From a virus, in the IMG/VR virus record IMGVR_UViG_3300044624_003021, positions 17,666-81,665 of that record: a DNA stretch of 64,000 bases. The stretch is one strand, 5' to 3'. Below, piece after piece: positions 23,430-57,232 of this stretch (the first letter of the stretch is position 1; every line of letters begins with the position of its first letter). Under the pieces are notes generated by a model. The model searched no databases and was not told the DNA's origin. It saw only the letters and a list, made by a program, of their open reading frames with translations. The position numbers and the translations under genes were made by a program.

Positions 23430-23864
23430 TTATACTTTCTGTTTACAAAGATTAATAATTTCTCTAATCAAAGGAATTAATTTATCAGTTGGAAAGGATG
23501 TGTATGGGTTCAAATATAACCCACTATGGGTACCCATTTTTTTAACCGGAAAACCATATTTCTGAGTAAGGTCAAAAACTAATTTACCCTTTTGAGGGTC
23601 GTCACTTTGGAAACTGAATGTTCCTACTTTTGATATTGACATTCCCCAATCATTTCCTGGCCCTGAGTGTGAACCCCAATTTAAACTATGGTCCCCGTCT
23701 TTCATTTTGATTTGTTTAGGACTTGTAGTCACTAAAGAAGAAACAATTTTAGACCAATTTTCATCCATTGATTGTTCTTCTTCATTTATCAATGGTTTAG
23801 CGTCACCCATTGTTGATTCCATCAAATTATAAAATCTTTTTTTGTATTGTTCTATATTGTTCAT
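23430..23864 (-). CDS. Unknown phage protein with protease-site-like N-terminus
   Basis: A 144-aa protein. The first 35 residues contain NLMESTMGD and LINEEEQ, both matching (L/I)-x-E sites. The rest is Gly/Ser-rich (LNWGSHSGPGNDWG) with a helical C-terminus. ATATTTATAT lies upstream. It may be an internal virion protein; no domain is recognised. Confidence 0.75.
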   Translation of the reverse strand: MNNIEQYKKRFYNLMESTMGDAKPLINEEEQSMDENWSKIVSSLVTTSPKQIKMKDGDHSLNWGSHSGPGNDWGMSISKVGTFSFQSDDPQKGKLVFDLTQKYGFPVKKMGTHSGLYLNPYTSFPTDKLIPLIREIINLCKQKV

Positions 23865-23928
23865 TGTACTATTTTTTTATATAAATATATGAAAAATAAA
23901 AAAGGTGGGTTTCCCCACCTGTGATTTG

Positions 23929-24001
23929 TTGCAACTGAAGGATTCGAACCTCCGACCTTCAGGTTATGAGCCTGACGAGCTGGCCTCTGCTCTAAGTTGC
24001 G
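23929..24001 (-). tRNA. tRNA-fMet(CAT), initiator-like
   Basis: A 73-nt cloverleaf with acceptor CGCAACT/AGTTGCA, giving the C1 x A72 mismatch that marks bacterial initiator tRNAs. The D-stem is GAGC/GCTC and the anticodon arm TCAGG-CTCATAA-CCTGA-AGGTC is nearly that of E. coli tRNA-fMet. The anticodon stem has two G-C pairs at its base rather than the usual three. CCA is not encoded. It forms the 3' end of the transcript carrying the large structured RNA. Confidence 0.88.
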
Positions 24002-24892
24002 ATGTAATAGTTGAACTAAGCCTGAGATTACAGCTTTGAGTGAGAACCTTTTGAAGGATTATTGTTTCCCTTCTTATCCACTTCCTTTTGAGAAGTATTT
24101 CTCAGTCACGGTCTTTTAGGTTTACCACTCCTTGAGGTTTAAGTTACTCTCTTATTACTTAACTCTTTCCGAGGTTGCCACCCCAGTTCATCCTTGCGGG
24201 ATTAAAGGTTTTTCGTAAAACTACAGTTAGACTTGGGGTCTTTCTGTGCCACGGACAACCCGTGACTGTGTAGTGACCTTTCACTCAAACCTGATGGACA
24301 CTTTTCCTTTAATTATTGTTCATAATTTTAGATTTGTGTCGTGGATGTGTCAGAGTAGTGGTCCACCGTAAGCTCCGTCTCCTTTTGGGTGACGAAATAC
24401 TAAACTACTCCGTGAGATATCCCTATCTCCATACTTTCAGATTACTTCATAAAGAGACCTTGGTAGGTCATCTTTAGGGGTAGTAGCGACACCACTCGTT
24501 CTCTACCTTACCTTTCGGTTTTAAATCCCCTTCGGTATTGGAATCCGCAATTGTGTAGTTGGAGCTACGTTTCTTACTTGATTCCTATGGGTTATTCTTG
24601 TTGGTGTTCCCACCTCAACTTGACAATCCACTTTGCCAAGTCACCTGACCACTTTCCCTACAGTGTTACCCTCGGTACTAAAGGTCTTGTGATATCCCAC
24701 TTGTGTACTCGAGTTCCTTTCGAAACCGCAACCTCCTCAACACGGGGGAGGTCACTTTATCCTACTTTCGTAGTTTATTTAAGGACCATACACGGCCCAT
24801 TATCTTTTATCAGTTGTCATCACCCGAAGGTTACTTTCACTGAATGGATAATCTTACTTTTCAAAGAACTTCTTCGGTCATTCCCGAATTGT
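24002..24892 (-). ncRNA. Large structured non-coding RNA (about 0.9 kb), GOLLD/ROOL-like candidate
   Basis: No plausible gene lies here, GC is visibly higher than in neighbours, and the minus strand folds into a long series of short perfect hairpins. Examples (minus strand): TTCGG/CCGAA near 24873-24888, CTAC-GAAA-GTAG, ACCTCC/GGAGGT, GTTTC-GAAA-GGAAC, GGTG-GGAA-CACC, GAGATA/TATCTC, CACGG/CCGTG and TGTAAT/ATTACA near the 3' end. It begins at a TTTG-N20-TAAATTTG promoter, has a boxA-like sequence right after it and ends at the tRNA. Giant ornate RNAs of the GOLLD and ROOL classes are known from phages next to tRNAs; membership is inferred from size and context only. Confidence 0.75.
24858..24872 (-). 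promoter_or_regulatory. boxA-like antitermination element in RNA leader
   Basis: GAAGTTCTTTGAAAA on the minus strand, about 25 nt after the promoter. It resembles the boxA of Bacteroidota rRNA leaders. Related sequences follow two other stable-RNA promoters of the window. Confidence 0.5.
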
Positions 24893-24896
24893 TTTA

Positions 24897-24928
24897 CAAA
24901 TTTAAGTCAAATTTTTCGTTCTGTCAAA
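24897..24928 (-). promoter_or_regulatory. Host-type promoter of the large RNA-tRNA operon
   Basis: TTTG (24925-24928), 20-nt spacer, TAAATTTG (24897-24904) on the minus strand, an exact Bacteroidota promoter. Two more TATATTTG boxes lie upstream at 24995-25002 and 25097-25104, each followed by GTAAARGATTTGA, so promoters may be in tandem. Confidence 0.7.
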
Positions 24929-25143
24929 TTTTTCTTAAACTTTTTTTAAGATTCGAGACTTGTATCTTAATCGTTGTCCGTCTCAAATCCTTTACAAATA
25001 TATGGTGACTTTTTCAATCTACCAAATTTATTTGTATTTTTTTTTTGATTTAACTTTCCGAGTATCTTTCATCACCTGTAGGTGTCAAATCTTTTACAAA
25101 TATAAGGATAAATACTCACCAGACAAGCAAAATCGTAAAAAAA

Positions 25144-25827
25144 TTACAGATTCATCAAATTTTTAATTCTATCGACATCTTCTTTAACGATAGAATTCAT
25201 ACCAAATTGACCAAACGCCTTTTCAAACCCTTTCATTAAAGGGTCCAATTTTCCACCAAACACATCAAGACCTTTAGAGCCCGGAGTTAAAGTTTTAAGT
25301 GATTTAGATAATTCAGGGCTAATTTCTTCTGAATCATCATCAGGTGTTGGTAAATCTTCATCGTTGGTAGTTGTCGAATCTTTAGGAGGTTGTGTGGGTG
25401 ATACCCCTGACTTATTTGAAATATGAACATGATTATTATGATTTTTATAACCAAACCATAAAACAACTTTAGGATTACCTGATTCTTTAACATTCACCAA
25501 ATACCCCAAATTTTTCAATTCATCAACAAATCGTTTAATACTATCATAAATCCCTTTGGTTTTTGCAGAACTTTCATCGCTCCAACCTTTACCGTTAATC
25601 ATGGCAATATCAACAGCATTACCCGTTTGATGTCTAGTTCCTTTTCTATGTCCGGTCACTGCCGTAGTTACTGAAACTTGAACATTCGCCTTTTTAGCTG
25701 CAGTCTGAATGTCTGATAATAAAGAAATATTAATATTATCCTTAGATGGCGTTGAATTACCTACCACTCTATCTCTAAATTCAACATTTGAGTACGTATC
25801 AACTACCTCATTTAATTTTTTATTCAT
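25144..25827 (-). CDS. M15-type (VanY/D-Ala-D-Ala carboxypeptidase-like) peptidase, probable endolysin
   Basis: A 227-aa protein. Residues about 35-142 carry the M15/hedgehog-type zinc site: HQTGNAVDIA (His and Asp ligands) and NNHVHIS (final His). A Thr/Asp/Pro-rich linker and a helical C-terminus with DVDRIKNLM follow. It likely cleaves peptide stems of peptidoglycan. There is no signal peptide, so release by a holin is expected. The gene overlaps the stop codon of a membrane coiled-coil gene, as endolysin and spanin-like genes often do. Confidence 0.75.
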   Translation of the reverse strand: MNKKLNEVVDTYSNVEFRDRVVGNSTPSKDNINISLLSDIQTAAKKANVQVSVTTAVTGHRKGTRHQTGNAVDIAMINGKGWSDESSAKTKGIYDSIKRFVDELKNLGYLVNVKESGNPKVVLWFGYKNHNNHVHISNKSGVSPTQPPKDSTTTNDEDLPTPDDDSEEISPELSKSLKTLTPGSKGLDVFGGKLDPLMKGFEKAFGQFGMNSIVKEDVDRIKNLMNL

Positions 25828-26162
25828 TATCCTTTAGTTCTCAAAAATTGATTTTCCGCTCTTAACTTTTCGTTTTCTTTTCTTAAGAAATCCACCTCAA
25901 CTTCTAATCTTGAGAGTGAAGTGGTTAATACGATGATGTTTTCTCTCATCTTATCTTTTTCTTTGGATGATTCGTCAAGTAATGTTTCTAATTTAACAAT
26001 TCTTTCTCTTAAATCATCTCTATAAAGTTCCCCATCTTTGTGTTGATTCTCTTCTTGCCTTTGCTTCAACAACATTCTTTTCTCATAATATTTCCAAGCC
26101 GCGTTTGAAGTTAAAACCGTTATTAGTGTAACGAGAATTGTAACCAAGTGTTGCTCCATCAT
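25827..26162 (-). CDS. Membrane-anchored coiled-coil protein (spanin-like)
   Basis: A 111-aa protein with one N-terminal membrane segment (VTILVTLITVLTSNAAW) and a long Lys/Glu coiled coil from residue 30. Two ATG codons stand in tandem. The layout matches an inner-membrane spanin, and the gene is coupled to the peptidoglycan hydrolase downstream. The assignment is by topology only. Confidence 0.6.
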   Translation of the reverse strand: MMEQHLVTILVTLITVLTSNAAWKYYEKRMLLKQRQEENQHKDGELYRDDLRERIVKLETLLDESSKEKDKMRENIIVLTTSLSRLEVEVDFLRKENEKLRAENQFLRTKG

Positions 26163-26209
26163 CAGTTTTTATTAAGTCAGTTATTATATTAAGATAAATA
26201 TCAAAAACA

Positions 26210-26244
26210 AAAAAAAAGTATGACATAGAGTCATACTTTTTTAC
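26210..26244. terminator. Intrinsic terminator
   Basis: AAAAAGTATGAC and GTCATACTTTTT form a long hairpin between two minus-strand genes. Confidence 0.8.
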
Positions 26245-26262
26245 AAATATACGAATGTTTAA

Positions 26263-26715
26263 TTAAACCGTATGGTCAATATTAACCCTAATACAAGTTT
26301 GAGGTTTATTTTCATTCATCAAAAAATTATTAATATACCCCATAATATTTGCCGAGCCGATAGGATTGGCCGAGTGTACGACTACCAAAGGAAATTTAAT
26401 ACTACTAGCACCCTTTTTGGAACGGCTCATCTCAATCCTATCAGGATTCATTTCATAAAAATAATCTACAATCCATTTTGTACAATCATATCCGGTTTTT
26501 TCCTTAATATTATCGTAATCCAATTTGTAGTTTGGGGATACATTTGCAAAATACTCATTCACTGCGGTATCACCCAAATCATGGTCCAATGAGATTGTTT
26601 CAATTTCACCGAGACCAATCTCAGTTACTTTATTAACAAAATCGTCGTAATTTCTAACAACAATCCAATCGTTAGATAGAGGTGTACGAATGTCATCCAA
26701 ATAAATTCTTTTCAT
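26263..26715 (-). CDS. Cyclic-phosphate-processing receiver-domain (cREC) protein
   Basis: A 150-aa protein with MKRIYLDDIRTP at the N-terminus, ISLDHDLGD in the middle and VHSANPIGSANIMGYINNF near the C-terminus, the three marks of the stand-alone cREC receiver family linked to RNA-end repair systems. Known family members are predicted to process cyclic phosphates; a role in repairing cleaved tRNA is inference. TATCTTTG lies 4 nt upstream of the ATG, which implies a leaderless mRNA. Confidence 0.8.
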   Translation of the reverse strand: MKRIYLDDIRTPLSNDWIVVRNYDDFVNKVTEIGLGEIETISLDHDLGDTAVNEYFANVSPNYKLDYDNIKEKTGYDCTKWIVDYFYEMNPDRIEMSRSKKGASSIKFPLVVVHSANPIGSANIMGYINNFLMNENKPQTCIRVNIDHTV

Positions 26716-26733
26716 AGTACAAAGATAGGTGTT

Positions 26734-27858
26734 TTATCTAACTCTCACAAATTTTTTGTACTTATTATCTTTTCCCTTAATAACTCTCATTTGTAAATCA
26801 CTATTTGGTAAAATAGTTTGCCAATCAATTATCATTTCGGTACAAGGACCAAGATAATCTCCGTGATTTAGGTGTGCCTGAACCGCATTTTGATTCACAT
26901 AAATTGTATGATAAGAACCATTACCCGTTCCATGACAAATCGCAACTTTGTGACAATCATCGTCATCTTCATCATCTTCATCCTCATCTTCATCGTCCTC
27001 ATCTTCGTCCTCATCTTCATCGTCCTCATCTTCATCCTCATCTTCATCGTCCTCATCTTCATCGTCCTCATCTTCATCGTCATCGTCATCACCAGGTGGG
27101 ATAACAATATTGATTCCAATAATTTGTTCAAATGTTGACACATTACCACAAGCGTCAGTTGCGGTATAATTTCTTATAATGTTATTTGCTGAATATTCTA
27201 AATCGCTATAAATTAAATTTATTGATGAACAATTATCTGTCACAGTTACAAACGAAGTATCAATATTATCATCTTCATTAACCTCCAAATAAATTGGACC
27301 TGTAATAACCGGCGGTGTCATATCAATAGATGTTATTGTTTGTGACGAGATAGAAGTATTTCCACAAAAATCAACGGCCTCCCAAACCCTAGTATAGATT
27401 GTAGAACAACTATCAACATTTTGAATTATGTTATAATAAGTTAGTACAAAATCACTACAGTTGTCTGTGACTTGGGGGTCATCGAATATAATTGAGTCAC
27501 CACATTCCACTGTACGATTGACCAAAGGTACAAAAAGTGGCGAAGTTTCATCAACAACGTGAATTATTTGACTCTCCACTGATTGATTTCCAAAGTTATC
27601 AAAAGCTCGATATACTCTAAAAACATCATAATTGTTTTCACAAATACCGGTCGTAACTTCTTCATACCAAGCAATCTCAACACTATCATCACACTCATCA
27701 AGTGCTACAGGAAATACAACACTCAAATCAACATCACAAGAAATGGTAACTTCAGGTTCAAAGTTGATAAAATAAGGATTAATGGAATCATTTTCACACT
27801 GTGAAAATAAATTTATCGTTAAAAAAGATAAACTGAGAAGTAAAATTAGGTTTTTCAT
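26734..27858 (-). CDS. Secreted HYR/Ig-like repeat protein with Asp/Glu tract
   Basis: A 374-aa protein with a signal peptide ending LFSQ. Three repeats follow the HYR-like pattern (ending DNFGNQSVESQII, VDFCGNTSISSQTI and TDACGNVSTFEQII), each with paired Cys. Residues about 255-304 are almost only Asp and Glu. A C-terminal block with CHKVAICHGTGN and AVQAHLNHGDYLGPC is a known ending of secreted Bacteroidota proteins. It is probably exported and possibly calcium-binding; a cell-surface role is inferred. No T9SS sorting domain is obvious. Confidence 0.75.
   Translation of the reverse strand: MKNLILLLSLSFLTINLFSQCENDSINPYFINFEPEVTISCDVDLSVVFPVALDECDDSVEIAWYEEVTTGICENNYDVFRVYRAFDNFGNQSVESQIIHVVDETSPLFVPLVNRTVECGDSIIFDDPQVTDNCSDFVLTYYNIIQNVDSCSTIYTRVWEAVDFCGNTSISSQTITSIDMTPPVITGPIYLEVNEDDNIDTSFVTVTDNCSSINLIYSDLEYSANNIIRNYTATDACGNVSTFEQIIGINIVIPPGDDDDDEDEDDEDEDDEDEDEDEDDEDEDEDEDDEDEDEDDEDDDDCHKVAICHGTGNGSYHTIYVNQNAVQAHLNHGDYLGPCTEMIIDWQTILPNSDLQMRVIKGKDNKYKKFVRVR
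26955..27093 (-). repeat. Acidic microsatellite encoding Asp/Glu tract
   Basis: Irregular copies of a unit close to CATCTTCATCGTCCT on the plus strand, encoding the Asp/Glu tract. It is prone to slippage. Confidence 0.85.
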
Positions 27859-27943
27859 AGAATTTTAGTTTTAGAGTTAAATAATAATGTATAATTTGAG
27901 ATATATCAAACATACTCAAGATAAATATTTTTATAAAAAATAA

Positions 27944-27968
27944 AAACCACACCTATTGGTGTGGTTTA
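27944..27968. terminator. Intrinsic terminator
   Basis: AAACCACACC and GGTGTGGTTT form a 10-bp hairpin with a TATT loop; it follows the minus-strand secreted gene at 27990-28490. Confidence 0.85.
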
Positions 27969-27989
27969 ACTCCATCCCCGACCTTAAAT

Positions 27990-28490
27990 TTATTTTTTAC
28001 TCCCAAAGGTTTTAATGGTAAAATACCAACTTGGTTTTATATGTTTTGGGTCTTGTATGACCACATATATTCTACCATTTTCTAATCCCGTATAATCATC
28101 AGAAAACGCATCTTTACCAACAGTAACTGTCCAAATATATCCATCTTCATCCTTTACCATACTTTGAATATACATTGAGTATTTGCTGAACCACTTCTCA
28201 CCCATAAATCCATTATTGGGTAATCCTTCAGAACTTAACTTAACCTTATTTGGGTATTTGATTCCAATCAATGTTCCCTTTTTAGAGATGTCAACATATA
28301 TGGCATGTTTATTTGGCCTAACTTTTTTAATATCCCAAGTTATTGAGATAGTATCAGGAGCGACGAATGTGCCTTCCTCAAAAGTTTGAACAAGCCATAA
28401 ATCGGACTTAAAAGATACTGGGTCTTTAAAAGTTTGTGAAAAGGCATTGATACTCAAAATTGTACATAGTACAAAAAATACGTGTTTCAT
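27990..28490 (-). CDS. Unknown secreted protein
   Basis: A 166-aa protein with a signal peptide ending AFSQ. The mature part is beta-rich with many Lys and aromatic residues. No family recognised. It is followed by a strong terminator and preceded by the tRNA-Ile, so it forms its own unit. Confidence 0.75.
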   Translation of the reverse strand: MKHVFFVLCTILSINAFSQTFKDPVSFKSDLWLVQTFEEGTFVAPDTISITWDIKKVRPNKHAIYVDISKKGTLIGIKYPNKVKLSSEGLPNNGFMGEKWFSKYSMYIQSMVKDEDGYIWTVTVGKDAFSDDYTGLENGRIYVVIQDPKHIKPSWYFTIKTFGSKK

Positions 28491-28557
28491 TGTTAGGTTT
28501 TATAGTAAATATCTTGAACAAAACGCGAGTTAGATATGAACTATAGTTTTTCAGTTG

Positions 28558-28631
28558 TAGTCGGAGTGGGAGTTGAACCCACGACCATCACGGTATAAGC
28601 GTGCAACTCTAACCACCTGAGCTATCCGACT
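28558..28631 (-). tRNA. tRNA-Ile(TAT)
   Basis: A 74-nt cloverleaf with acceptor AGTCGGA/TCCGACT, anticodon loop CTTATAC (anticodon UAU) and T-arm GTGGG/CCCAC. The outermost anticodon-stem pair is G-A. It would read AUA, a codon favoured by this AT-rich genome. CCA is not encoded. Confidence 0.88.
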
Positions 28632-28843
28632 ATGTTTCCCCACCTTGAGATTATTGGTGAGTAGATTTATCGGTTTTCTATTTCTTAAAAACCTGCTGGT
28701 CTTACCCGTTAAAAACATCCAACACTACTGGGAGGGAATGTGTCTATCCCTTTATCCCACGATGTCCCACTCGCGCCGTAGACATTCTGCGGAATCATTC
28801 TTTAAGTCTTGATTCGAAGACTCTGAGTATCTCTTACTCATTG
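28632..28843 (-). other. Structured spacer between tRNA-Ile and a tRNA-like element
   Basis: No gene. Hairpins GAGTA/TACTC and AGTCTT/AAGACT and several G/C-rich helices are visible on the minus strand, suggesting a further stable RNA or a processed spacer. Confidence 0.45.
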
Positions 28844-28952
28844 TAGTCAGGACAAGAATCGAACTTGTATAGTCACCTCCTTGATTCACGTCCGATTGGG
28901 AGGATTACTGAACTCGTGATACAACTACTGGCGCCAATTCCGCCACCTGACT
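28844..28952 (-). tRNA. tRNA-like element without recognisable anticodon arm
   Basis: The acceptor AGTCAGG/CCTGACT and T-arm ACAAG-TTCGATT-CTTGT are perfect, and a D-like arm TGGCG/CGCCA is present. The span is 109 nt. Scanning the central 61 nt by eye finds no 5-bp stem with a 7-nt loop. Instead TCACG/CGTGA and CCTCC/GGAGG can pair in an interleaved (pseudoknot) order. It may be a tRNA-like stable RNA or a degenerate tRNA. Confidence 0.5.
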
Positions 28953-29050
28953 ATTGGGTTATTTAACGTCACTACTTTATTAAACCTCGGTATCATTGAG
29001 GTATCTACACCCCTCATTTAATAAATCGTCACCCATTTGACGAGCCTCTG

Positions 29051-29123
29051 TAGTCAGGACAGGAATCGAACCTGTATTCCCTAATTAAGCGTTAGGTACT
29101 TTACCAGTTAAGTACACCTGACT
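29051..29123 (-). tRNA. tRNA-like element, possible Lys(CTT), atypical
   Basis: Acceptor AGTCAGG/CCTGACT, D-arm with AACTGGTAA, T-arm ACAGG-TTCGATT-CCTGT. The best anticodon arm is CCTAA-CGCTTAA-TTAGG, with anticodon CTT but G at position 33 instead of the near-universal U. Either an odd tRNA or a tRNA-like RNA; its acceptor equals that of the element at 28844-28952. Confidence 0.5.
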
Positions 29124-29602
29124 ATGTTGGGTGGGTTAATGAGTGGTTTCCCCCACCTCTTTTTACTCTGTATCAATCTACTTGCGAAGTAGTATCAACC
29201 TGCGCCACTCTGTGAATTTTTAGGGTGAGAAACCCTATGTGTTGTAGTGATGACTCTAGTGTCACTAAGCTCTACTCCTTTCCTTTCTCAAGGGAACAAC
29301 ACATTAAGTTTAGGTAAGGGGAAGATGGTCGAGTGGACAACCCCTTTTACGATTGGCATTACTTCAGGTGAATACCTGCCAACTCCGATTATACCAGTCG
29401 GTATCCACTCTCAAACTATTGGTATAATCATTCCCCAATCAACCTATAATGTGGTCGGTGGGGGAGGAATAAGAGCGACTTATTCCCTTAAAGCTCTACT
29501 TGTCGTTTATCCATCGTGTTTTAAAAACACCGTAGCTACGTTTGACTTGGATATATCTAACTTTCGTCTGCCACCCCACCTTTTAAATATTTTTAAAGAA
29601 CT
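29124..29602 (-). ncRNA. Second structured non-coding RNA, about 0.5 kb
   Basis: No convincing gene. The minus strand shows GGTGGGG closing with CCCCACC over about 120 nt, GAGTGGA/TCCACTC, TTGGCA/TGCCAA with inner CAGGT/ACCTG, TGTGTTGT/ACAACACA, TAGGGT/ACCCTA and CTACTT/AAGTAG. It starts at a TATATTTG box (29607-29614) followed by a boxA-like sequence (29591-29604) and leads into three tRNA or tRNA-like elements, the same layout as the RNA at 24002-24892. Confidence 0.6.
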
Positions 29603-29606
29603 TCTA

Positions 29607-29614
29607 CAAATATA
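29607..29614 (-). promoter_or_regulatory. Host-type -7 box of the second RNA operon
   Basis: TATATTTG on the minus strand. GAAGTTCTTTAAAA at 29591-29604 follows directly and resembles boxA. No clear TTTG at -33. Confidence 0.5.
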
Positions 29615-29617
29615 CGA

Positions 29618-29950
29618 CTATTTTTCCAATTCACCTAATTCTTCTTTCAATCTTTTCAAAAAACTTTCTTCTCCATCATCGCCCGATAACAACCAATCAA
29701 TACGTTGAGCATAAACTGCGGCGACTCTAAGAACTTTCATACCCTCCTTGAATTTTTCAATTACCTCATCAGGATATTTGTAATGACTTAAATCTTCAGG
29801 ATATTTCTCATACCAATCATCCCCACGCCATCCTTCTTCTTTGAGTTCCTCTCGTGTTTTTTCACGACCATTTTTCTCAATCAGTTTCTCAACGTCATCG
29901 GCAATTTGTTCAATATGCCATTGTTTGTAGTCGAATGCTCCTCCTGACAT
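29618..29950 (-). CDS. Small conserved phage protein (MSGGAFDY family)
   Basis: A 110-aa acidic, helical protein. The start MSGGAFDYKQWHIEQIADDVE and the ending RIDWLLSGDDGEESFLKRL are typical of a widespread family of small phage proteins of unknown function. Confidence 0.75.
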   Translation of the reverse strand: MSGGAFDYKQWHIEQIADDVEKLIEKNGREKTREELKEEGWRGDDWYEKYPEDLSHYKYPDEVIEKFKEGMKVLRVAAVYAQRIDWLLSGDDGEESFLKRLKEELGELEK

Positions 29951-29951
29951 T

Positions 29952-30134
29952 TTATATTTCTTTTAATTGTGATTTAGAACATGCTTTACCGAAACTGAAT
30001 GCTCCTTGACTATCGTGACCACCAGGAATTTGATTATAGTATTTTCCATCGGTCATTGATAATTCAAGCCATACAGCCTTTGATGGGTTAAGTTTTTCAC
30101 CACATCTTTCACACCATATTGTTTCTTGTTTCAT
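29952..30134 (-). CDS. Small zinc-finger-like protein
   Basis: A 60-aa protein with CERCGEKL near the N-terminus and a later Cys. It could bind one metal ion. TAAATTTG lies 4 nt before the ATG, so the mRNA may be leaderless. Confidence 0.65.
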   Translation of the reverse strand: MKQETIWCERCGEKLNPSKAVWLELSMTDGKYYNQIPGGHDSQGAFSFGKACSKSQLKEI

Positions 30135-30157
30135 TGGACAAATTTAAGTATTTAATT

Positions 30158-30298
30158 TTAAACCACCAAATCTTTTTTTGAGAATTTCATAAACTCATAA
30201 CCTTCTTGAAACATTCTATCCAATAACTCAACGGTTATCTCGTCAAGGTCAATCATTCCAATCATTTTGTTTTTCTTGTATACTCCGATGTATTCCAT
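30158..30298 (-). CDS. Small unknown protein
   Basis: A 46-aa frame (MEYIGVYKKNKMIGMIDLDE...) with balanced composition, fed by a TATCTTTG box about 26 nt upstream of the ATG. It fills the gap between two genes. Confidence 0.55.
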   Translation of the reverse strand: MEYIGVYKKNKMIGMIDLDEITVELLDRMFQEGYEFMKFSKKDLVV

Positions 30299-30357
30299 AG
30301 TTTTTAGTTTTAAGTAGACAAAGATACAACAAATTAGGTTACGATAAGATTAAGTTA

Positions 30358-30840
30358 TTAACAAATTTTGAATGCGAAATTAATCACTCGTTTCTTCATT
30401 GTTGCGTCAGATGCGTTTCCAACGACTTGACCATCAATGATTGAAAATGCGTGACCACGAACAACCACAAGATACTTACCAACAGGATATTTCTTAATAA
30501 ACGTACTGGTGGTCATATTACGTTTAACCATTTGACCTTTGGACTTAACATCATATTTCATATGTCCGTACTGGTTACCCAAATTTGAGAATGATTTTCC
30601 ATTAATCAGAATTTTATTGTCAACCATATGACGCATACCACCGACAAAGTTTCTTGTTCCTTCAAAGTTTTTACGGAACCAAATCTTTGCAACAAACTTG
30701 TGAGCCTCATCATAATGCATTTCAAATGATGACGAGATGGCTCTTACGACACAATCATTTTTTTCGGTTTTGGCAATTGTTGAATCAGAGTATCCAATAA
30801 TCGCCTCTTTTGTGGGTATGTATTTGATTTCGTTATTCAT
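30358..30840 (-). CDS. Possible papain-like cysteine peptidase of phage type
   Basis: A 160-aa protein from the ATG at 30840; an upstream ATG at 30867 would place the promoter inside the gene. NDCVVRAISSSF provides a Cys at the start of a helix and VVVRGHAFSIIDG a His in a strand, the order of C39/papain-like folds common in phages. TATATTTG is 4 nt upstream of the chosen start. The catalytic assignment is tentative. Confidence 0.65.
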   Translation of the reverse strand: MNNEIKYIPTKEAIIGYSDSTIAKTEKNDCVVRAISSSFEMHYDEAHKFVAKIWFRKNFEGTRNFVGGMRHMVDNKILINGKSFSNLGNQYGHMKYDVKSKGQMVKRNMTTSTFIKKYPVGKYLVVVRGHAFSIIDGQVVGNASDATMKKRVINFAFKIC

Positions 30841-30892
30841 ACCACAAATATACGGCGAACAACTCATCCCACAAAATTAAGTTATTAACAAA

Positions 30893-30919
30893 AAAAATAC
30901 CACCCGAAGGTGGTATTTT
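30893..30919. terminator. Intrinsic terminator
   Basis: AAATACCACC and GGTGGTATTT with a CGAA loop, between two minus-strand genes. Confidence 0.85.
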
Positions 30920-30932
30920 CTTTTTTGGTCGA

Positions 30933-31961
30933 TTATTGGACCACAAATTTGTTTGTGGACGTTATTGTACCATTTCGGTCAACCGTGTTAAGAACGTAGA
31001 TTCCCGAAGAAAGTAATGATTTAACATCAATAACAACTTTACTTTGGTTTACATTTTCTTCATATACAATTTGACCTGACAAATTCATAATTCTTAGTTT
31101 TTGACCACTATAATCGTTCAGACCAGACAAATCAATATTAATAACATCTGTAGTTGGGTTGGGGAATACATCAATGTTTATAACTATGTTGGGGTTATCA
31201 GTATTAGTTGGGTTTTGGGAATTTGAATCTCTATAAAGTTTAAAAACTTCATCCTCATTCAAATCTCGATTCCACATTCCTACATCATCTAAATTACCTG
31301 ATAAAAATCTGTACATATTACCTTGGAAATTATCAGCTCCAAAAAATAAATTATTTTCAGATGGACAAATATCACCATATGTAGTTTGTTCACCGGTTAA
31401 TACTCCATTAACATACATTTTTCCACCATTTACAGGACTATGAGTAAAGACTAAGAAATGCCATTTATCATCAGCAGTACAAGTTCCACCATTAACATTA
31501 TTACCATTAATTGTATTCATATTAGTTGATGATATAAAGTTATTATCACCTATCAACATTGTATATGAATCAAAAGACCCTCCATTACATACATCAAAGT
31601 ATGAAAAAAACCATTTAGTAACAATTCCTTGGTAATCATCTACACTACTACCGACAGGTTTTTTTAACCATACAGAAATTGATAACGATGGGACGTTAGA
31701 AATACTTTCAGAATTATCGACCAAAATAAAATTATCAATTCCATTAAAATTATAGGCCATATCAGAATTACCAAATCTATCCATAGTTAAAGACGAACCA
31801 AAAACCTGTCCGTGGTTTTGATTTCCACTTTCATCATTGGCATTACCGTCAAACGGCCACCAACCGATAAGACCATTTGTTGGTAAATAATTTGGTACTT
31901 GAGATACAATCAAGTTGTAATAAAAAAGAGAAATTAATGTAAAAAAAATTGTTTTTTTCAT
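30933..31961 (-). CDS. Secreted LamG-domain protein with type IX secretion sorting domain
   Basis: A 342-aa protein: signal peptide ending IVSQ; residues about 30-245 are a LamG/concanavalin-like fold (GLIGWWPFDGNANDESGN, SISVWLKK, DDVGMWNRDLNEDE); residues about 262-342 form a type A Por/T9SS C-terminal domain (NIDVFPNPTTDVINID, LSSGIYVL, TNKFVVQ). In Bacteroidota this tail sends proteins through the type IX machinery to the cell surface. The ligand is unknown, perhaps a glycan. Presence in a phage implies use of the host's T9SS. Confidence 0.88.
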   Translation of the reverse strand: MKKTIFFTLISLFYYNLIVSQVPNYLPTNGLIGWWPFDGNANDESGNQNHGQVFGSSLTMDRFGNSDMAYNFNGIDNFILVDNSESISNVPSLSISVWLKKPVGSSVDDYQGIVTKWFFSYFDVCNGGSFDSYTMLIGDNNFISSTNMNTINGNNVNGGTCTADDKWHFLVFTHSPVNGGKMYVNGVLTGEQTTYGDICPSENNLFFGADNFQGNMYRFLSGNLDDVGMWNRDLNEDEVFKLYRDSNSQNPTNTDNPNIVINIDVFPNPTTDVINIDLSGLNDYSGQKLRIMNLSGQIVYEENVNQSKVVIDVKSLLSSGIYVLNTVDRNGTITSTNKFVVQ

Positions 31962-32130
31962 GTTATATATATTTTAAATTATTGAATACAAATTAAAGTC
32001 ATTTTTTTTAAACTGCCAAATTTTTTATGTGTTTGGTTAAATGTTGATTCCAAAGTAAGACGTAAATAAAATGGAATTATTCCATCTTTTCTTACATAAG
32101 TTGATATTACGATTGCTAATTTAATAATTA
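31962..32130. other. AT-rich intergenic region
   Basis: No gene, tRNA, terminator or clear promoter seen. Confidence 0.5.
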
Positions 32131-32916
32131 TTAATCTTGATTTTTTTTATAAAATCTATTTTCTTCAGGTTGATACCATTCATCTAATGAAGCCGGTACC
32201 CTTGAAGAATATCCCAGAAATTGTTGCATTTTAGGAGTAAAGGTGTTCATAATATCATACCCTAAAGCTCTTGGGTAATCAAGTAATTGTTTCATAAATG
32301 ACCTACTTATAGTTATTGGTATTGCTCGTCTATTTTTATTAGTTTTGTTAGGTGATGACGAATGCCATACATTAGAATTAAATATTAATATGTCTCCTCT
32401 ATTTCCTGTCGCCTGATATGAGTTTGAAAAAAATTCTGAATCGGATGGTTTTTCCTCACTTAAATGAGAACCTGATAGTAAAAAAGTTCCACCATTTTCT
32501 AAAGTAAAATCGTCAACCATAACTAAACAATTAATCATAATTGGGAAATCTCCCGAGTAAAACCTCAAATCTCTGTGGATAATTGATGAAAAATTTGGTT
32601 TAAATGGTAGGTTATTTAACGCACTAAATGAATTTAAGATACAGTTACTTTTAAAAAAATTATTTTGTAGTGAATCAATAAATCCATTGTCAAGTAATAC
32701 TTGTAAAAATTCAATGAAAATCTTACTGTCTAAAATAGCGTGGAGAGCAACTCCATCTGAGTTTATTTCATTATTATTACTTATTTGAATATTTCTATGT
32801 TTAACAAAAGATTTATCCATCTCTTCAGAAAGCATATCTAACCATTCTGTGCTAACTTGATTTTTAATTATAGTATGACCTTTCATACTTAATTCATTTA
32901 ATTGGTCAATTGTCAT
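32131..32916 (-). CDS. Phytanoyl-CoA dioxygenase-like Fe(II)/2-oxoglutarate oxygenase
   Basis: A 261-aa protein with the PhyH-family iron site: His114-x-Asp116 (IIHRDLRF), distal His185 (NVWHSSSPN), and a 2-oxoglutarate-binding Arg at 196-197. The segment TFLLSGSHLSEEKPS is also typical. It would hydroxylate a small molecule, a sugar or a protein. The start overlaps the end of the acetyltransferase gene by 4 nt, so it belongs to the three-gene sugar-type operon. Confidence 0.85.
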   Translation of the reverse strand: MTIDQLNELSMKGHTIIKNQVSTEWLDMLSEEMDKSFVKHRNIQISNNNEINSDGVALHAILDSKIFIEFLQVLLDNGFIDSLQNNFFKSNCILNSFSALNNLPFKPNFSSIIHRDLRFYSGDFPIMINCLVMVDDFTLENGGTFLLSGSHLSEEKPSDSEFFSNSYQATGNRGDILIFNSNVWHSSSPNKTNKNRRAIPITISRSFMKQLLDYPRALGYDIMNTFTPKMQQFLGYSSRVPASLDEWYQPEENRFYKKNQD

Positions 32917-33578
32917 TTTAAAAATTTTTCTCCTTTTATTCTTTTTCTAATTATTTTAGCCGGATTACCATACGCTAAAACATCGTCAGGTAAAGATTTA
33001 ATTACTAAACTTCCAGCACCAACAACAGTATTATCTCCTATTTCTAATCTATCTAAAACAGTGACTCCCAGAGTAATTGCCGAATATTTACCAATTTTTA
33101 CATAACCTCCAGTAATTGAACCCGCGGAAATACTTGCAAAGTCTGATATTATATTATCATGTTCAACCTGAGCCCCTGTTGCAAAAAAAGTAAAGTCACC
33201 AATTTTTGATTTTGGGTTAAATATACATCCGGCCATAGCCACAATCCCAACACCCATCTCAGTTGTATTACCAATGATTACTGATGGATGTATTGCGTTA
33301 ACAAATTTGAAATTAGGAACCATTGAAATTATTTTTTCATGTACGTAATACCTAGTCCAATTCTCACCTATTGATATTACACCTCCATAAACTTCATATT
33401 CATTTATTATTTGTTTTAAATTTTCTTCTCTTCCTAAAATTTTATATCCATATTTAATACTACCAATTTCATTTATCGAATCAATAATACCTACAATTTT
33501 ATATTTATTTTCTTTTTCAATAATGTCGATGGTATAATGAGATTGATTACCCCCACCAAATAAAACAATATTTTCCAT
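32913..33578 (-). CDS. NeuD/PglD-type sugar O/N-acetyltransferase
   Basis: A 221-aa protein with an N-terminal Rossmann-like part (ENIVLFGGGNQSHYTIDII) and a C-terminal left-handed beta-helix of hexapeptide repeats (SVIIGNTTEMGVGIVAMAG, ending VVGAGSLVIKSLPDDVLAYGNPAK). This architecture is that of NeuD/PglD acyltransferases acting on nucleotide-linked amino sugars. The upstream aminotransferase would supply the amino group. Confidence 0.87.
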   Translation of the reverse strand: MENIVLFGGGNQSHYTIDIIEKENKYKIVGIIDSINEIGSIKYGYKILGREENLKQIINEYEVYGGVISIGENWTRYYVHEKIISMVPNFKFVNAIHPSVIIGNTTEMGVGIVAMAGCIFNPKSKIGDFTFFATGAQVEHDNIISDFASISAGSITGGYVKIGKYSAITLGVTVLDRLEIGDNTVVGAGSLVIKSLPDDVLAYGNPAKIIRKRIKGEKFLK

Positions 33579-33580
33579 AA

Positions 33581-34225
33581 TTAATTAATTTTAGTGTAGA
33601 TTTTAAATTTAGATAAATCAGGATAAGGTAATTCTAAATCTTCGTTGATAATAGGAATTCCCTTCGAATCATAGAACTGACTAATTAAAAGTAATCCTCT
33701 TGCCGCAATTTCAGGCATCATGTAGAAATTCCATCCGATTACCGGATTTTTATCAAAATCATCATCATGATAACTACATTCATCACGACCGCTAAATCTA
33801 GCCTTTTTAAACCACTTGTAGGCATTTTCATCATCAGTTAAAATAGCACCACCTTTGCCCAATTTTAAATGTTTGTATGGTCCTGTGAAAGATACACACA
33901 TATGTGTGTTTGGAATGTACATGTTATGAGTAAATCTTAACGCACTATCCCAAACTTTAGTTGGATATAACTGATATGCCCCTTTAATCGTATCTCCTTC
34001 CACATTAAAGAATTTAACTTTACCTCCTGCGTGAATTATTTCACAAGGGACCGATGGATATGTCCTACAAGGAATTTCAATATCCATTCCCTTCACATTT
34101 TCATACATCAGAGATAAAAAAAGTGCATTACTTTGATTATCTACTGTAACTACAAACGGAGCTCCGGTATAGTCTGATAATTTTTTTTCAAATTCTTCAG
34201 TTATTTTATGAACGCCTTGTGCCAT
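33581..34225 (-). CDS. Short DegT/DnrJ/EryC1-type PLP aminotransferase
   Basis: A 214-aa protein. The PLP-site region SFTGPYKHLKLGKGGAI contains the expected Lys, and IEIPCRTYPSVPCEIIHAGG matches the family's N-terminal region. It is little more than half the usual 370-aa length; the C-terminal subdomain is missing although the frame is intact. It may be a compact phage form. It starts the operon aminotransferase, acetyltransferase, dioxygenase. Confidence 0.8.
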   Translation of the reverse strand: MAQGVHKITEEFEKKLSDYTGAPFVVTVDNQSNALFLSLMYENVKGMDIEIPCRTYPSVPCEIIHAGGKVKFFNVEGDTIKGAYQLYPTKVWDSALRFTHNMYIPNTHMCVSFTGPYKHLKLGKGGAILTDDENAYKWFKKARFSGRDECSYHDDDFDKNPVIGWNFYMMPEIAARGLLLISQFYDSKGIPIINEDLELPYPDLSKFKIYTKIN

Positions 34226-34310
34226 TTTTCTTATAAAAATCTTTTGTTATTAAGTACCCAAGTCCCATTCCGACCCAAATACCAATTAATAATAATTCTA
34301 ACCCATTCAT
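34206..34310 (-). CDS. Possible small membrane peptide
   Basis: A 34-aa frame with a single membrane segment (LLLIGIWVGMGLGYLI) and a basic tail. It overlaps the start of the aminotransferase by 20 nt. Confidence 0.4.
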   Translation of the reverse strand: MNGLELLLIGIWVGMGLGYLITKDFYKKNGTRRS

Positions 34311-34328
34311 AGTAAATTAAAAAAATTG

Positions 34329-34473
34329 TAGTCAAGGAAGGATTCGAACCTCCACGGGCTGCCATTATAGTGACCACACGCATTGTGCTTTTTTACCCCT
34401 AGTGCTATAACCATCTAGTACGTCTACCTTGAGAGTATGTTTCCGGAGACTCTCAATATTCCGCCACTTGACT
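34329..34473 (-). tRNA. tRNA-like element with inserted hairpin in the D-loop
   Basis: The acceptor AGTCAAG/CTTGACT and T-arm GGAGG-TTCGAAT-CCTTC are intact. The D-loop looks like a tRNA-Leu loop interrupted by a hairpin TGAGAGT/ACTCTCA (GAATAT...AGGTAGACG). The centre contains TTATAG/CTATAA and CACA/TGTG instead of a normal anticodon arm. Span 145 nt. No anticodon can be assigned. Confidence 0.45.
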
Positions 34474-34485
34474 ATGTTTAACTAG

Positions 34486-34559
34486 TGCACCCTGCAGGAT
34501 TCGAACCTGCCACCCAGTGATTATGAGTCACTTGCTCTAACCTAATGAGCTAAGGGTGC
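34486..34559 (-). tRNA. tRNA-Met(CAT), elongator (or Ile2 with modified CAT)
   Basis: A 74-nt cloverleaf: acceptor GCACCCT/AGGGTGC (G1-C72, so not initiator), D-stem GCTC/GAGC, anticodon arm AGTGA-CTCATAA-TCACT, T-arm GCAGG/CCTGC. The anticodon CAT also fits lysidine-modified tRNA-Ile2; bases alone do not settle it. Confidence 0.87.
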
Positions 34560-34564
34560 TTTGG

Positions 34565-34851
34565 TACTGGGTGTGGGACTCGAACCCACACGGACGCAAT
34601 GTCCACAGGATTTTCTTACCACTATAGTTTTCACTACCAACTAAAAGTTGTTTGTGGTCTGGACTATACCTTCACCATATCTTACGATTTAGGTGCTCCG
34701 TGTCTAGTCTCTACACCTTCCTTTTCAGGCTTGGCTCGGGGTTCCCACTTTCGGAGGGTTCACCGAATTTACGGAGTTCTACATTCTTGATTTCTCAAGA
34801 CGCACTCAAATAGTTAAAGTCCTGAATGTCTACCTATTCCATCAACCCAGC
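34565..34851 (-). tRNA. tRNA-Leu(TAA) interrupted by a group I intron
   Basis: Exon 1 is 34817-34851 (acceptor GCTGGGT, D-arm ATG/CAT with GAATAGGTAGA, CAGGA then CTT) and exon 2 is 34565-34614 (AAAATCCTG, variable arm GGAC/GTCC, T-arm GTGGG/CCCAC, ACCCAGT). Joined they give anticodon loop CTTAAAA, anticodon UAA, 85 nt. The split between U34 and A35 is the classic position of trnL group I introns. It is the first gene of its operon. Confidence 0.9.
34615..34816 (-). ncRNA. Group I intron in tRNA-Leu(UAA), trnL (IC3-like) type
   Basis: 202 nt. The exon ends in U and the intron ends in G, as group I splicing needs; ACTT of the exon can pair with GAGT in the intron (P1 with a U-G at the cut). 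CTTGA-GAAA-TCAAG forms a P2-like hairpin. Core segments AATTCGGTGAACCCTCCGAA, CCCCGAGCCAAGCC, AGGTGTAGAGACTAGAC and AAGGTATAGTCC correspond to those of cyanobacterial and plastid trnL introns. No homing endonuclease is encoded, so it is a minimal intron. Confidence 0.88.
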
Positions 34852-34852
34852 A

Positions 34853-34876
34853 TTTCAAATAACTTTTACAAATATA
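34853..34876 (-). promoter_or_regulatory. Promoter -7 box and boxA-like leader of the tRNA-Leu operon
   Basis: TATATTTG (34869-34876) on the minus strand with a GTTG about 20 nt upstream, followed by GTTATTTGAAA (34853-34863), which resembles the boxA-like leaders of the two large RNAs, directly before the tRNA. Confidence 0.5.
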
Positions 34877-34887
34877 CAGGTAAAACC

Positions 34888-35109
34888 TTAACCAATCAAC
34901 TTTAAAACCAAAATAATTAGATTTAAAGTAATCACAGTGATTCCAAAGACAACCGCAAAACGGTACATAAATTCTTCAAAAGGTGTATTGTTATTGTATC
35001 TCATTTTTGTAATTGGTTTTTTATTGGTGTTAAACATATCTCTAATTACCTGATTTCTTGTCTCATCAGTTTTATCGATATAAGGTTTTTTTAATTTGAT
35101 TTTTTTCAT
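34888..35109 (-). CDS. Small single-pass membrane protein
   Basis: 73 aa: basic N-terminal half and a C-terminal membrane helix (VVFGITVITLNLIILVLKL). Overlaps the upstream gene by 4 nt. Confidence 0.65.
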   Translation of the reverse strand: MKKIKLKKPYIDKTDETRNQVIRDMFNTNKKPITKMRYNNNTPFEEFMYRFAVVFGITVITLNLIILVLKLIG

Positions 35110-35474
35110 TGGAGTTCTATCTTCATACTCTCCAAAATCTCACTAATCATATTATCCATTTCATAAGTGCTCGGAGGCTCAACAAGACTTTCAATTTCAT
35201 CAGAAATACCAGTGGAATCAATTGAAGCAACGATTACATTGTCCTCAAGTTCTAATTGAACATAATCACTTGAAAATTCAATTCCAGAAATTGAGGAGTT
35301 TTGTAATTGAACAAAATTATCATACAGTGCGTCTGAAAATTCCTTGAGTTGTTGTTTCGTGAAGGAATAGGTTTGTTCACCCATAACTTCTTTCTTTAAT
35401 TGTTCTACTTGTTTTGCAATTAACATAGTTTGTTCATACAATGAATCAATAGAGTTCTTTTTTTCTTTAGACAT
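35106..35474 (-). CDS. Unknown coiled-coil acidic protein
   Basis: A 122-aa protein, helical at both ends, with no recognised family. A TACATTTG -7 box lies about 27 nt upstream of the ATG. It is coupled to the membrane protein downstream. Confidence 0.65.
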   Translation of the reverse strand: MSKEKKNSIDSLYEQTMLIAKQVEQLKKEVMGEQTYSFTKQQLKEFSDALYDNFVQLQNSSISGIEFSSDYVQLELEDNVIVASIDSTGISDEIESLVEPPSTYEMDNMISEILESMKIELQ

Positions 35475-35563
35475 ATTTTATCGTTTTAATTGTGATTACA
35501 AATGTAAGTGTGTTTTTCCGACTTTCAAAATATTTATAGTAAATAAATTTTAATTTTTAAACA

Positions 35564-35728
35564 ATGGTACAAAAAGAACAAATTTTGGGTTTAGTTAGAC
35601 ACGGACTTACTTTTTTAGGGGGAATTTTAGTTGCTAGGGGCTTAGCATCAGAAGGTCAAATTATGGACATAATTGGTATGACTGTAACTTTCGTTGGGAC
35701 CGTATGGTCAATTTTATCCAACAAATAA
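35564..35728 (+). CDS. Holin-like small membrane protein
   Basis: 54 aa with two hydrophobic segments separated by a short charged turn (GLTFLGGILVARGLASEG, MTVTFVGTVWSILSNK). The pattern matches a widespread family of small phage holin-like proteins. An AATATTTATA motif lies about 25 nt upstream and a terminator follows. Confidence 0.68.
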   Translation: MVQKEQILGLVRHGLTFLGGILVARGLASEGQIMDIIGMTVTFVGTVWSILSNK

Positions 35729-35749
35729 TATTTCAAATATTGGGAATTA

Positions 35750-35778
35750 AGGGGAGTTGTTAACTCCCCTTTTTTTGT
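35750..35778. terminator. Bidirectional terminator
   Basis: GGGGAGTT/AACTCCCC followed by seven T, between convergent genes; it includes the stop codon of the minus-strand gene. Confidence 0.85.
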
Positions 35779-35924
35779 ATATAGTCGTCGTAAACCTCCT
35801 CAACAGTGAAACACTTGGTCATTTCATCTGAATTTTTTGGATACCTATATTTCCAATCATGTTGGCCACATGGTTCATATACCGTCGGTATCCAATATGC
35901 AAAATCTTTAGCTTCTTTACTCAT
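35760..35924 (-). CDS. Small unknown protein
   Basis: A 54-aa frame (MSKEAKDFAYWIPTVYEPCG...) coupled by an ATGA overlap to the preceding gene. Aromatic-rich with two Cys. Confidence 0.6.
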   Translation of the reverse strand: MSKEAKDFAYWIPTVYEPCGQHDWKYRYPKNSDEMTKCFTVEEVYDDYIQKKGS

Positions 35925-36205
35925 AAATTAACTTTTAAAATTGGTTCATTATCGTATTTCTGAATTAAATCAGTGATTTCATGTTTGATTTGGTACCCTA
36001 AAACTTGGTCGGTTTCTTGAAGCATTATCATTTCTCCCATTCTGTCAAACACCGCAACTTCAAAAGTGTTAATACCATCTCCGTAAAAGAATTCATCTCC
36101 ACCAACTACTGAAATTTCGTATCCGTTGTTAAGGGTCATTAAAGCTTGAACTCCTCCTCTTAAATTGGGGTGGGGTTCAAATACCAAATCATTGAATGTT
36201 TTCAT
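35921..36205 (-). CDS. Small conserved phage protein, unknown function
   Basis: A 94-aa protein rich in Asp/Glu/Gly (SVVGGDEFFYGDGINTFEVAVF), typical of small phage accessory proteins. Overlaps the archaemetzincin gene by 17 nt and the next gene by 4 nt. Confidence 0.7.
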   Translation of the reverse strand: MKTFNDLVFEPHPNLRGGVQALMTLNNGYEISVVGGDEFFYGDGINTFEVAVFDRMGEMIMLQETDQVLGYQIKHEITDLIQKYDNEPILKVNL

Positions 36206-36860
36206 CTTGTTTCAATCTTTTTTTACATTTATCACAAAAATCCATAGTTACCTCGGCGTCATTATTAATGGCCATCAAACATTTTGGGTTATTACAGTGA
36301 ACAAGACCTAACGTATGACCAACTTCGTGTAAAACCGTAGTTTCATCGTAATCAGTATGTTCCACAATCACAGTATTACAACGTAAGAACGTACCCCCAC
36401 GAATTTGTTGACCTTTATTAACAACGTTTTCATTGGTCACATAAATTGTTTTAACTCCGTGACGATTAAGTTCAAATATACATTGGGAAACATCTAAGTT
36501 ATTTCCATTGTAATACATCTTACTTGTCGTTGGAACTCCTTCCTCAACTATACATCGATAACCAAAAAACTTGTTAACATATTCCGCAACTTTGTTAACA
36601 TCCTTTTGGTTGTAATTACCCAATCCTTTAATTCGGACCGCAGATTCAACTTTAGGTTGGACTTCGTCTAATTCTTTTTCTTTAAGAATTTTTACATAAT
36701 GCTGAGACAAAGTGTCGTCTATGTCAGGCATTTTTTCGAGTTTTCGACCAAGACTTTCAAGTTCAGGAATTCCACTTTCGGACCATGGAACGACTTTAGT
36801 TGGTTCGTTGTTACAAGAAAATAAAGAAATAATTGTGAGGGTTATAAGTATGTGTTTCAT
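36189..36860 (-). CDS. Lipoprotein archaemetzincin (M54 zinc protease)
   Basis: A 223-aa protein with a lipoprotein signal (LFSC, Cys16). Its zinc motif is HEVGHTLGLVH-C-x4-C-x-M: His178, Glu179, His182, His188, Cys189, Cys194, Met196, then CDKC (Cys209, Cys212), which matches the archaemetzincin signature including the structural-zinc cysteines. Family members are aminopeptidase-like zinc proteases; membrane anchoring is unusual. TATATTTG is 4 nt upstream of the ATG (probable leaderless mRNA). Confidence 0.87.
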   Translation of the reverse strand: MKHILITLTIISLFSCNNEPTKVVPWSESGIPELESLGRKLEKMPDIDDTLSQHYVKILKEKELDEVQPKVESAVRIKGLGNYNQKDVNKVAEYVNKFFGYRCIVEEGVPTTSKMYYNGNNLDVSQCIFELNRHGVKTIYVTNENVVNKGQQIRGGTFLRCNTVIVEHTDYDETTVLHEVGHTLGLVHCNNPKCLMAINNDAEVTMDFCDKCKKRLKQDENIQ

Positions 36861-36926
36861 GGTACAAATATACGGTAACTTTTTTGATTTTACAAAATTT
36901 ACTTATCAACATTGTCTTCAATCTTT

Positions 36927-37307
36927 TTAATATAAAACCTCATAAATTATACATACGTCATCATATTCAACCATAACAATGTCCCCACCTTTATAGTAAA
37001 GATAAACCTTGCATCTTTTCCTATCTTCGTCAACCGCATACCAATAAGAACCATTACCATCTTCGGTAAAATATTCAGGTTTAAGTGTCTGATAGAATTG
37101 AATATCTTCGGTGTATATTGTAATTTCCTGAGCGTCAAATTTGACAAGAATATCACCCGACAATTTTTTCGTTTCTCCCCACGTAAATTTGGAATAAGCA
37201 TCATCTCTAACACCAATTGTTAGACTGACGGCCCTTGCCCAAACTTGTGAGAATGAGATGATTGTCAAAAGTGATAGGACTAAAGTTAGGATTAGTTTTT
37301 TCATCAT
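36927..37307 (-). CDS. Unknown secreted protein
   Basis: A 126-aa protein with a signal peptide ending SFSQ and a beta-rich mature part with many Tyr and Asp residues. No family recognised. tRNA-Arg lies 11 bp upstream, so both may share one transcript. Confidence 0.75.
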   Translation of the reverse strand: MMKKLILTLVLSLLTIISFSQVWARAVSLTIGVRDDAYSKFTWGETKKLSGDILVKFDAQEITIYTEDIQFYQTLKPEYFTEDGNGSYWYAVDEDRKRCKVYLYYKGGDIVMVEYDDVCIIYEVLY

Positions 37308-37317
37308 AAAAAATTAG

Positions 37318-37391
37318 TACTCCCGAAGGGATTCGAACCCCTGGCCCACAGATTAGAAATCTGTTGCTCTATCCAACTGAGCTACGGGAGC
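37318..37391 (-). tRNA. tRNA-Arg(TCT)
   Basis: A 74-nt cloverleaf: acceptor GCTCCCG/CGGGAGT, D-stem GCTC/GAGC, anticodon loop TTTCTAA (anticodon UCU) on ACAGA/TCTGT, T-arm with GGTTCGAATCC. It would read AGA, the main Arg codon of AT-rich genomes. Confidence 0.92.
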
Positions 37392-56443: not shown

Positions 56444-56511
56444 TCATCAATAAATATCAATATACTCTTTAAGTTAAAAAAAATATTACTATAATTAAGG
56501 TTTTTTTAAAA

Positions 56512-56538
56512 TAAAAAACCCGTCGGTTAGACGGGTTT
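56512..56538. terminator. Intrinsic terminator
   Basis: AAACCCGTC/GACGGGTTT with a GGTTA loop, after the metallophosphoesterase gene. Confidence 0.88.
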
Positions 56539-56542
56539 CAAA

Positions 56543-57232
56543 TTAAATAAACTCCAATTTATTCGTTACAGGGTCCCATTCTACCGTTAGTGGTTTTTGG
56601 GTGTATTGATACTGTTCGTCTAATACCGAGGCATTGATGAAGTGAGTATCTCCGTCAAAAACATAACCATACCCTGAATGTATGTGCCCGCAGACATGAA
56701 TTTTAGGTTTAATTGTTTTAATTCTTTTTGTCAGTAATTCACATCCAAGATTATCATACTGACCCATAATTGTATCCAAATAACCAAATGCCGGTCCGTG
56801 AGTAATTAATATGTCAGTATCATCAGGAATGTCATTCCACTTCTGTGTAAGTTTATGACCATTCTTTGGTAGATTAAACGCCCAATTATAGAACTCGGGC
56901 TGCCATGGACTACCATAAATCTTTACATAATTTTCCGTATCAACTCCGTAACCAAGAAAACTATCTTGAAGATAAACAATGTCATTATAAAAACCGACAA
57001 CCTCTTTGGCCATTTCGGGTTCCTTTTCAAACCCAAAGTCGTGATTACCGGCAATGAATGTCTTTACAGTATAATTTTCCAAACTGTCAAACCACTTGCA
57101 GAATTTTTGGATTTCATACTTATAACCCATTGATGAGATATCACCAGCGTGAATCAGTAAGTCACCTCCTGGCAAATCTTCAGTAATTTGCTTGTGTTTG
57201 TTGTGAGTATCTGATATAAAAGTTATTTTCAT
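56543..57232 (-). CDS. Calcineurin-like metallophosphoesterase
   Basis: 229 aa with the metal sites ISDTHNK (Asp8, His10), HAGDISSMG, AGNHDFGF, ITHGP and CGHIHSGYG. It would hydrolyse a phosphodiester or phosphomonoester; substrate unknown. Its start overlaps the end of the NusG-like gene by 4 nt. Confidence 0.9.
   Translation of the reverse strand: MKITFISDTHNKHKQITEDLPGGDLLIHAGDISSMGYKYEIQKFCKWFDSLENYTVKTFIAGNHDFGFEKEPEMAKEVVGFYNDIVYLQDSFLGYGVDTENYVKIYGSPWQPEFYNWAFNLPKNGHKLTQKWNDIPDDTDILITHGPAFGYLDTIMGQYDNLGCELLTKRIKTIKPKIHVCGHIHSGYGYVFDGDTHFINASVLDEQYQYTQKPLTVEWDPVTNKLEFI

Follow-up and report, generated by a model that had tools for sequence, protein, structure and literature searches.

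The phage gene analysed here encodes a lectin-type protein that, as judged from its sequence, very probably bears an address for the type IX secretion system (T9SS) of the host: a Sec signal peptide at one end and a full type A sorting domain at the other. Since a lectin-type protein carries both of these host surface-address labels, infection probably puts a viral lectin on the cell surface. We consider it likely that the gene is a phage moron whose product is exported by the host Sec system and T9SS and then either stays on the infected cell or is released from it. The gene lies in a window of 64,000 nucleotides (positions 17,666 to 81,665 of the IMG/VR record IMGVR_UViG_3300044624_003021), and the features of its locus are collected in Table 1.

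The open reading frame (ORF) is intact, running from ATG to TAA without internal stops. A heuristic prediction places the signal peptide at MKKTIFFTLISLFYYNLIVS, directly followed by Q, with K-K, a hydrophobic core and VS before the cleavage site; a preliminary description of this DNA had claimed such a peptide, and the LIVS-Q junction is of the Bacteroidota type. The LamG fold which that description proposed was recovered as Laminin_G_3 (PF13385, 63.1 bits against a Pfam cut-off of 27.6), and the lectin fold as a whole extends over about residues 29-245. The description had also read the motifs VFPNPTTDVINID and GIYVL, both present in the translation, as a C-terminal sorting domain, and had asked for a profile search. 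Both families exceed their curated cut-offs: TIGR04183 (type A; 40.5 bits, NCBIfam cut-off 23) at the extreme C-terminus, residues 265-342 of 342, and PF18962 Por_Secre_tail (45.2 bits, Pfam cut-off 27) over residues 265-341. When all 81,665 bases of the record were searched in six frames, the lectin ORF was the sole match to TIGR04183 (43.1 bits, E 2.7e-12). When the single protein was used as the query against the PDB, its C-terminus matched 8glk_D, a solved T9SS sorting domain (2.6e-4), and a profile built from the protein and its relatives retrieved the T9SS sorting domains 8glk_D (2.9e-12), 8glj_D and the mirolase C-terminal domain (CTD) 8qb1. Profile scores, six-frame match and solved structures together indicate that the motif reading was correct and not a chance resemblance.

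Table 1. Features of the lectin gene and its surroundings (window coordinates).
Feature	Position	Strand	Remarks
Secreted LamG lectin gene with T9SS type A sorting domain	30933..31961	-	342 aa
Sec signal peptide, Q-rule cleavage between VS and Q	31902..31961	-	residues 1-20; heuristic; Q and VPNY kept in cellular relatives
Laminin_G_3 / ConA-like lectin domain	31245..31721	-	residues 81-239 by Pfam
T9SS type A C-terminal sorting domain	30936..31169	-	residues 265-342; profile matches and PDB matches
Intrinsic terminator	30890..30923	-	15-pair hairpin, UUCG loop, U-rich 3' arm; -18.8 kcal/mol, z -5.3 against shuffles
PhyH-like oxygenase, upstream of lectin	32131-32916	-	
NeuD-type sugar acetyltransferase, upstream of lectin	32913-33578	-	
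Short DegT-type aminotransferase, upstream of lectin	33581-34225	-	
Accessory island	23430..37391	.	five tRNA genes, exported proteins, sugar-modifying enzymes; few genes common with relatives

The first AF2 model of the lectin was too weak for use (58.5 pLDDT) and was remade with nine rows, which gave a jelly roll with a mean pLDDT of 68.9; the VIA list covered residues 24-256, the CTD lying outside it. The best structural match was the glycan-binding domain 4 of the arabinanase AbnA (Z 19.6, rmsd 2.8 over 192 residues), and glycan binding by the protein fits its predicted ConA-like lectin fold. Matches to the binding domains of botulinum and tetanus toxins were also considered, but they reflect a common ConA-like jelly roll and score lower than the arabinan-binding domain; no sign of a toxin was seen in the lectin beyond this shared fold. 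The match to a domain of an extracellular arabinanase, together with an architecture that is that of cellular secreted proteins, agrees with a lectin acting beyond the infected cell, where, shed through the T9SS, it would bind polysaccharide in the medium or biofilm and keep virions or host near new hosts or food. The protein has no catalytic domain, however, and no foraging genes are indicated in the locus, so that we regard this role as rather unlikely.

The carrier is a real tailed-phage genome: the window encodes a major capsid protein (MCP), a portal, a T4-like terminase and an endolysin. The identical lectin gene is also present in another IMG/VR contig, 107,982 bases long, which agrees with the record at 99.98-100% identity over 54 kb; the two contigs overlap and belong to one virus, whose genome must then measure at least about 135 kb. 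The bacterial look of the lectin gene might suggest contamination by bacterial DNA or a chimeric assembly, but this is hardly credible, since the contig also carries phage hallmark genes and the second contig has the same gene and flanks. Relatives of the large terminase (TerL) include the Flavobacterium phage immuto and uncultured phages 484 and 595 kb in size, along with many contigs from IMG/VR that are 83-97% identical.

These phage relatives point toward Bacteroidota as producer cells, as do the signal peptides. In Bacteroidetes, a Q directly follows the signal-peptide cleavage site (the Q-rule; PMC5837995), and Q-rule signal peptides are known from proteins of Porphyromonas gingivalis phages (PMC10367356). 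A heuristic scan of the 81.7 kb record found Q immediately after an [ASG] cleavage site in all eight cleavable signal peptides, against a background of 4/119 other N-termini and 9.7% of shuffled signal regions, and the extension contig added one further case. The exported proteins of this phage thus all look Bacteroidota-like, in agreement with the T9SS address proposed earlier. The host probably belongs to the Bacteroidota, and we infer that it possesses a T9SS.

Several other genes in the window were recorded. Adjoining the major capsid gene, the minus-strand region 1-2564 encodes two exported Q-rule proteins, a subtilase (774 aa including the part outside the window) and a DNA/RNA non-specific endonuclease (1989-2564). 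Further exported or membrane-associated products are an HYR_4C protein in which Asp/Glu repeats form a long stretch close to the end (26734-27858, minus strand), a predicted lipoprotein whose zinc-binding region is metzincin-like and whose best match is Peptidase_M54 (36189-36860, minus), a histidine-kinase-like PAS protein that has a membrane helix at its N-terminus (55190-57750, minus; a NusG-like protein is encoded downstream), and a protein of 261 aa that ends in ITANLEITF and is possibly an outer-membrane barrel (60561-61346, minus), a homologue of which lies near the capsid gene in the record G007. A ClpA/ClpB-like ATPase is encoded at 18535-20583 (plus), and a full-length phage DnaK at 49157-51034 (minus; 996 bits to NF001413), the latter common to the 484-735 kb phages and the Lak phages.

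Blocks around 2.8-22 kb and around 37.5-60 kb are conserved in relatives, and the segment between 23.4 and 37.4 kb is poorly shared. The lectin gene, which belongs to this accessory segment, was found in none of the related phages examined, including relatives with the same head genes; it is a moron in the sense of an accessory gene that is missing from relatives with a common core. In one related record (G022), a type B T9SS cargo gene stands at the start of the equivalent island. The position of the lectin gene also bears on the possibility that its product is part of the virion, as a tail or capsid decoration with an Ig-like C-terminus that merely resembles a sorting domain. ConA-like folds are known in phage tailspikes (9vyh), but a Sec signal peptide joined to a full type A family match, a location in the accessory island away from the structural genes and the absence from relatives with the same head genes make a virion role very improbable.

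A strong predicted terminator directly follows the lectin gene, and a gap of 169 bases precedes it, with no upstream promoter signal above shuffles. The three upstream neighbours on the same strand possibly form a surface-glycan module. A connection of the DegT and NeuD genes with the Wbp sugar that serves as linker in T9SS anchors (PMC7468200) was considered but found no support: the matches are to NeuD and weakly to LegC/PseC, and homologues are also present in relatives without the lectin.

Cellular proteins of Bacteroidota share the beginning of the phage protein (signal peptide, Q, VPNYVPTNGLxGWWPFDGN) as well as the lectin, at 30-37% overall identity, and two of them (L004 and L007) also have the C-terminus in common with it. 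L004, from a Bacteroidetes MAG, resembles the phage lectin in its signal peptide, QVPNYVPTNGLVGWWPFDGN start, LamG domain and type A C-terminus, but is only 37% identical, has an additional domain between lectin and CTD, and is chromosomal; its gene is flanked by chromosomal genes, and the genome encodes many T9SS cargo proteins. In the four genomes identified first and some 300 of the phylum, the best local cellular matches reached 36-40% identity, which suggests that the capture was not recent among the sampled genomes. A tblastn search of 50,697 phage records with the full lectin protein gave no match, and the CTD alone gave weak matches only. An architecture so typical of cellular Bacteroidota proteins would suit a captured host gene in transit, useless to the phage. 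The distance from the nearest cellular relatives found, an intact ORF with its own terminator and the recurrence of the pattern with other passengers in related phages argue against this, and we consider it improbable.

This recurrence is seen in both classes of T9SS signal. Type A domains were found in G012, G031 and G044 and in 634-735 kb phages known only as uncultured, on a subtilase with SprB repeats, on SprB repeats and on proteins without known domain; type B domains were found in G009, G022, G023, G033, G044 and two megaphages. When records chosen for the lectin or the CTD are left out, at least one T9SS signal is present in five of the six TerL/MCP relatives of at least 98 kb (G012, G022, G031, G033 and G044, not G032), and in 7/45 such relatives overall, most of the others being fragments of 20-90 kb. 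G012 and G031 carry near-identical cargo, and G022 and G023 are alike too, so that there were fewer events than records. The five non-Bacteroidota phages examined (T4, phiKZ, Aeromonas 65, S-CAM9, Microcystis Mel-JY01) gave no type A domain, and neither did Lak-A1/B4, crAss001 or five cultured Flavobacterium and Cellulophaga phages; type A signals are thus a habit of some Bacteroidota phages and not of all. The type B family had no match in 18 named phage records, which is no proof of its absence. Two side observations concern the same relatives. In G044, the subtilase in the slot beside the capsid gene is the bearer of a type A domain, and several exported proteins in L191 (G044:55000-74999) and in G032 (80621-82714) have a short terminal tail of the kind KYINITGQEI..GVYFKVYDDGSMKRVYKQ, which resembles the last half of the T9SS domain without its PNP half.

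A cultured phage provides a further example. In the Flavobacterium phage immuto_13-6C, gp15 (QQO92171.1) combines a cohesin domain with a type A sorting domain (46.5 bits). Like the lectin, it has a Q-rule signal peptide and belongs to a related phage, but its passenger is a cohesin and it sits in a row of Q-rule secreted genes, namely the nuclease gp12, the C-type lectin gp13, gp14 and gp15 itself. The gp12 nuclease is 53% identical to the product of 1989-2564 in the window.

Phage-encoded T9SS cargo is already known, and the lectin is a further case. In Cryophage, such cargo was described together with the proposal that it changes the surface or excludes superinfection (Bellas et al., 2020, PMC7468147). 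As here, a Bacteroidota phage encodes type A sorting-domain proteins in genome modules that vary, but its cargo consists of endoglucanase, glycoside hydrolase 39 and PA14 proteins, whereas the present phage, which belongs to a T4-like large-phage lineage, has a LamG lectin. T9SS sorting-domain proteins were also reported in Bacteroidota phage contigs as crAss-BACON cluster 2 (2019, PMC6949934); unlike the lectin, these have BACON domains, lie near head genes and belong to crAss-like phages. The P. gingivalis phages share the Q-rule signal peptides on phage proteins with the present phage, but a T9SS sorting domain was not reported there (PMC10367356). What is new is the recurrence of type A and type B signals over a clade with different passengers, plus the cultured example immuto_13-6C gp15, neither of which was found in the open-licence papers searched.

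The sequence shows the intact ORF with its domains, the phage context, the accessory status of the gene and its terminator; we infer from this that the protein is exported, loses its sorting domain and acts at the infected cell surface. During infection, the host Sec system would take the lectin out of the cytoplasm, the signal peptide would be cut off between VS and Q, and the type A CTD would direct the protein across the outer membrane via the host T9SS. Type A cargo is known to cross the outer membrane by this route with removal of the CTD (PMC11205867), and in P. gingivalis it is tied to glycolipid (PMC11205867, PMC7468200); the ConA-like lectin would end attached to the infected cell or shed from it. 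Species-specific CTDs may fail in some hosts (PMC11285876), which counts against this reading. The most likely role would be to cover or cross-link surface glycans, with less adsorption of further phages, or to alter the adhesion of the infected cell; superinfection exclusion in particular is plausible but rather unlikely. Of the roles proposed in the preliminary description, receptor masking is plausible on logical grounds, and receptor blocking or altered gliding adhesins may, by logic only, be others.

On a wider scale, we only tentatively suggest that the large Bacteroidota phages of a whole clade send an exoproteome of their own out through the host Sec system and T9SS, swapping its passengers (lectins, SprB-repeat proteins, a subtilase, a nuclease and type B proteins), remodelling the surface of the infected cell and excluding rivals. 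The presence of a type A signal in a cultured phage with a Flavobacterium host makes T9SS display by phages testable, and together with the recurrence in the clade it opens the 2020 proposal to bench testing. If this proves true, phages would change the adhesion, gliding and phage resistance of Bacteroidota before lysis by means of T9SS-displayed lectins and proteases.
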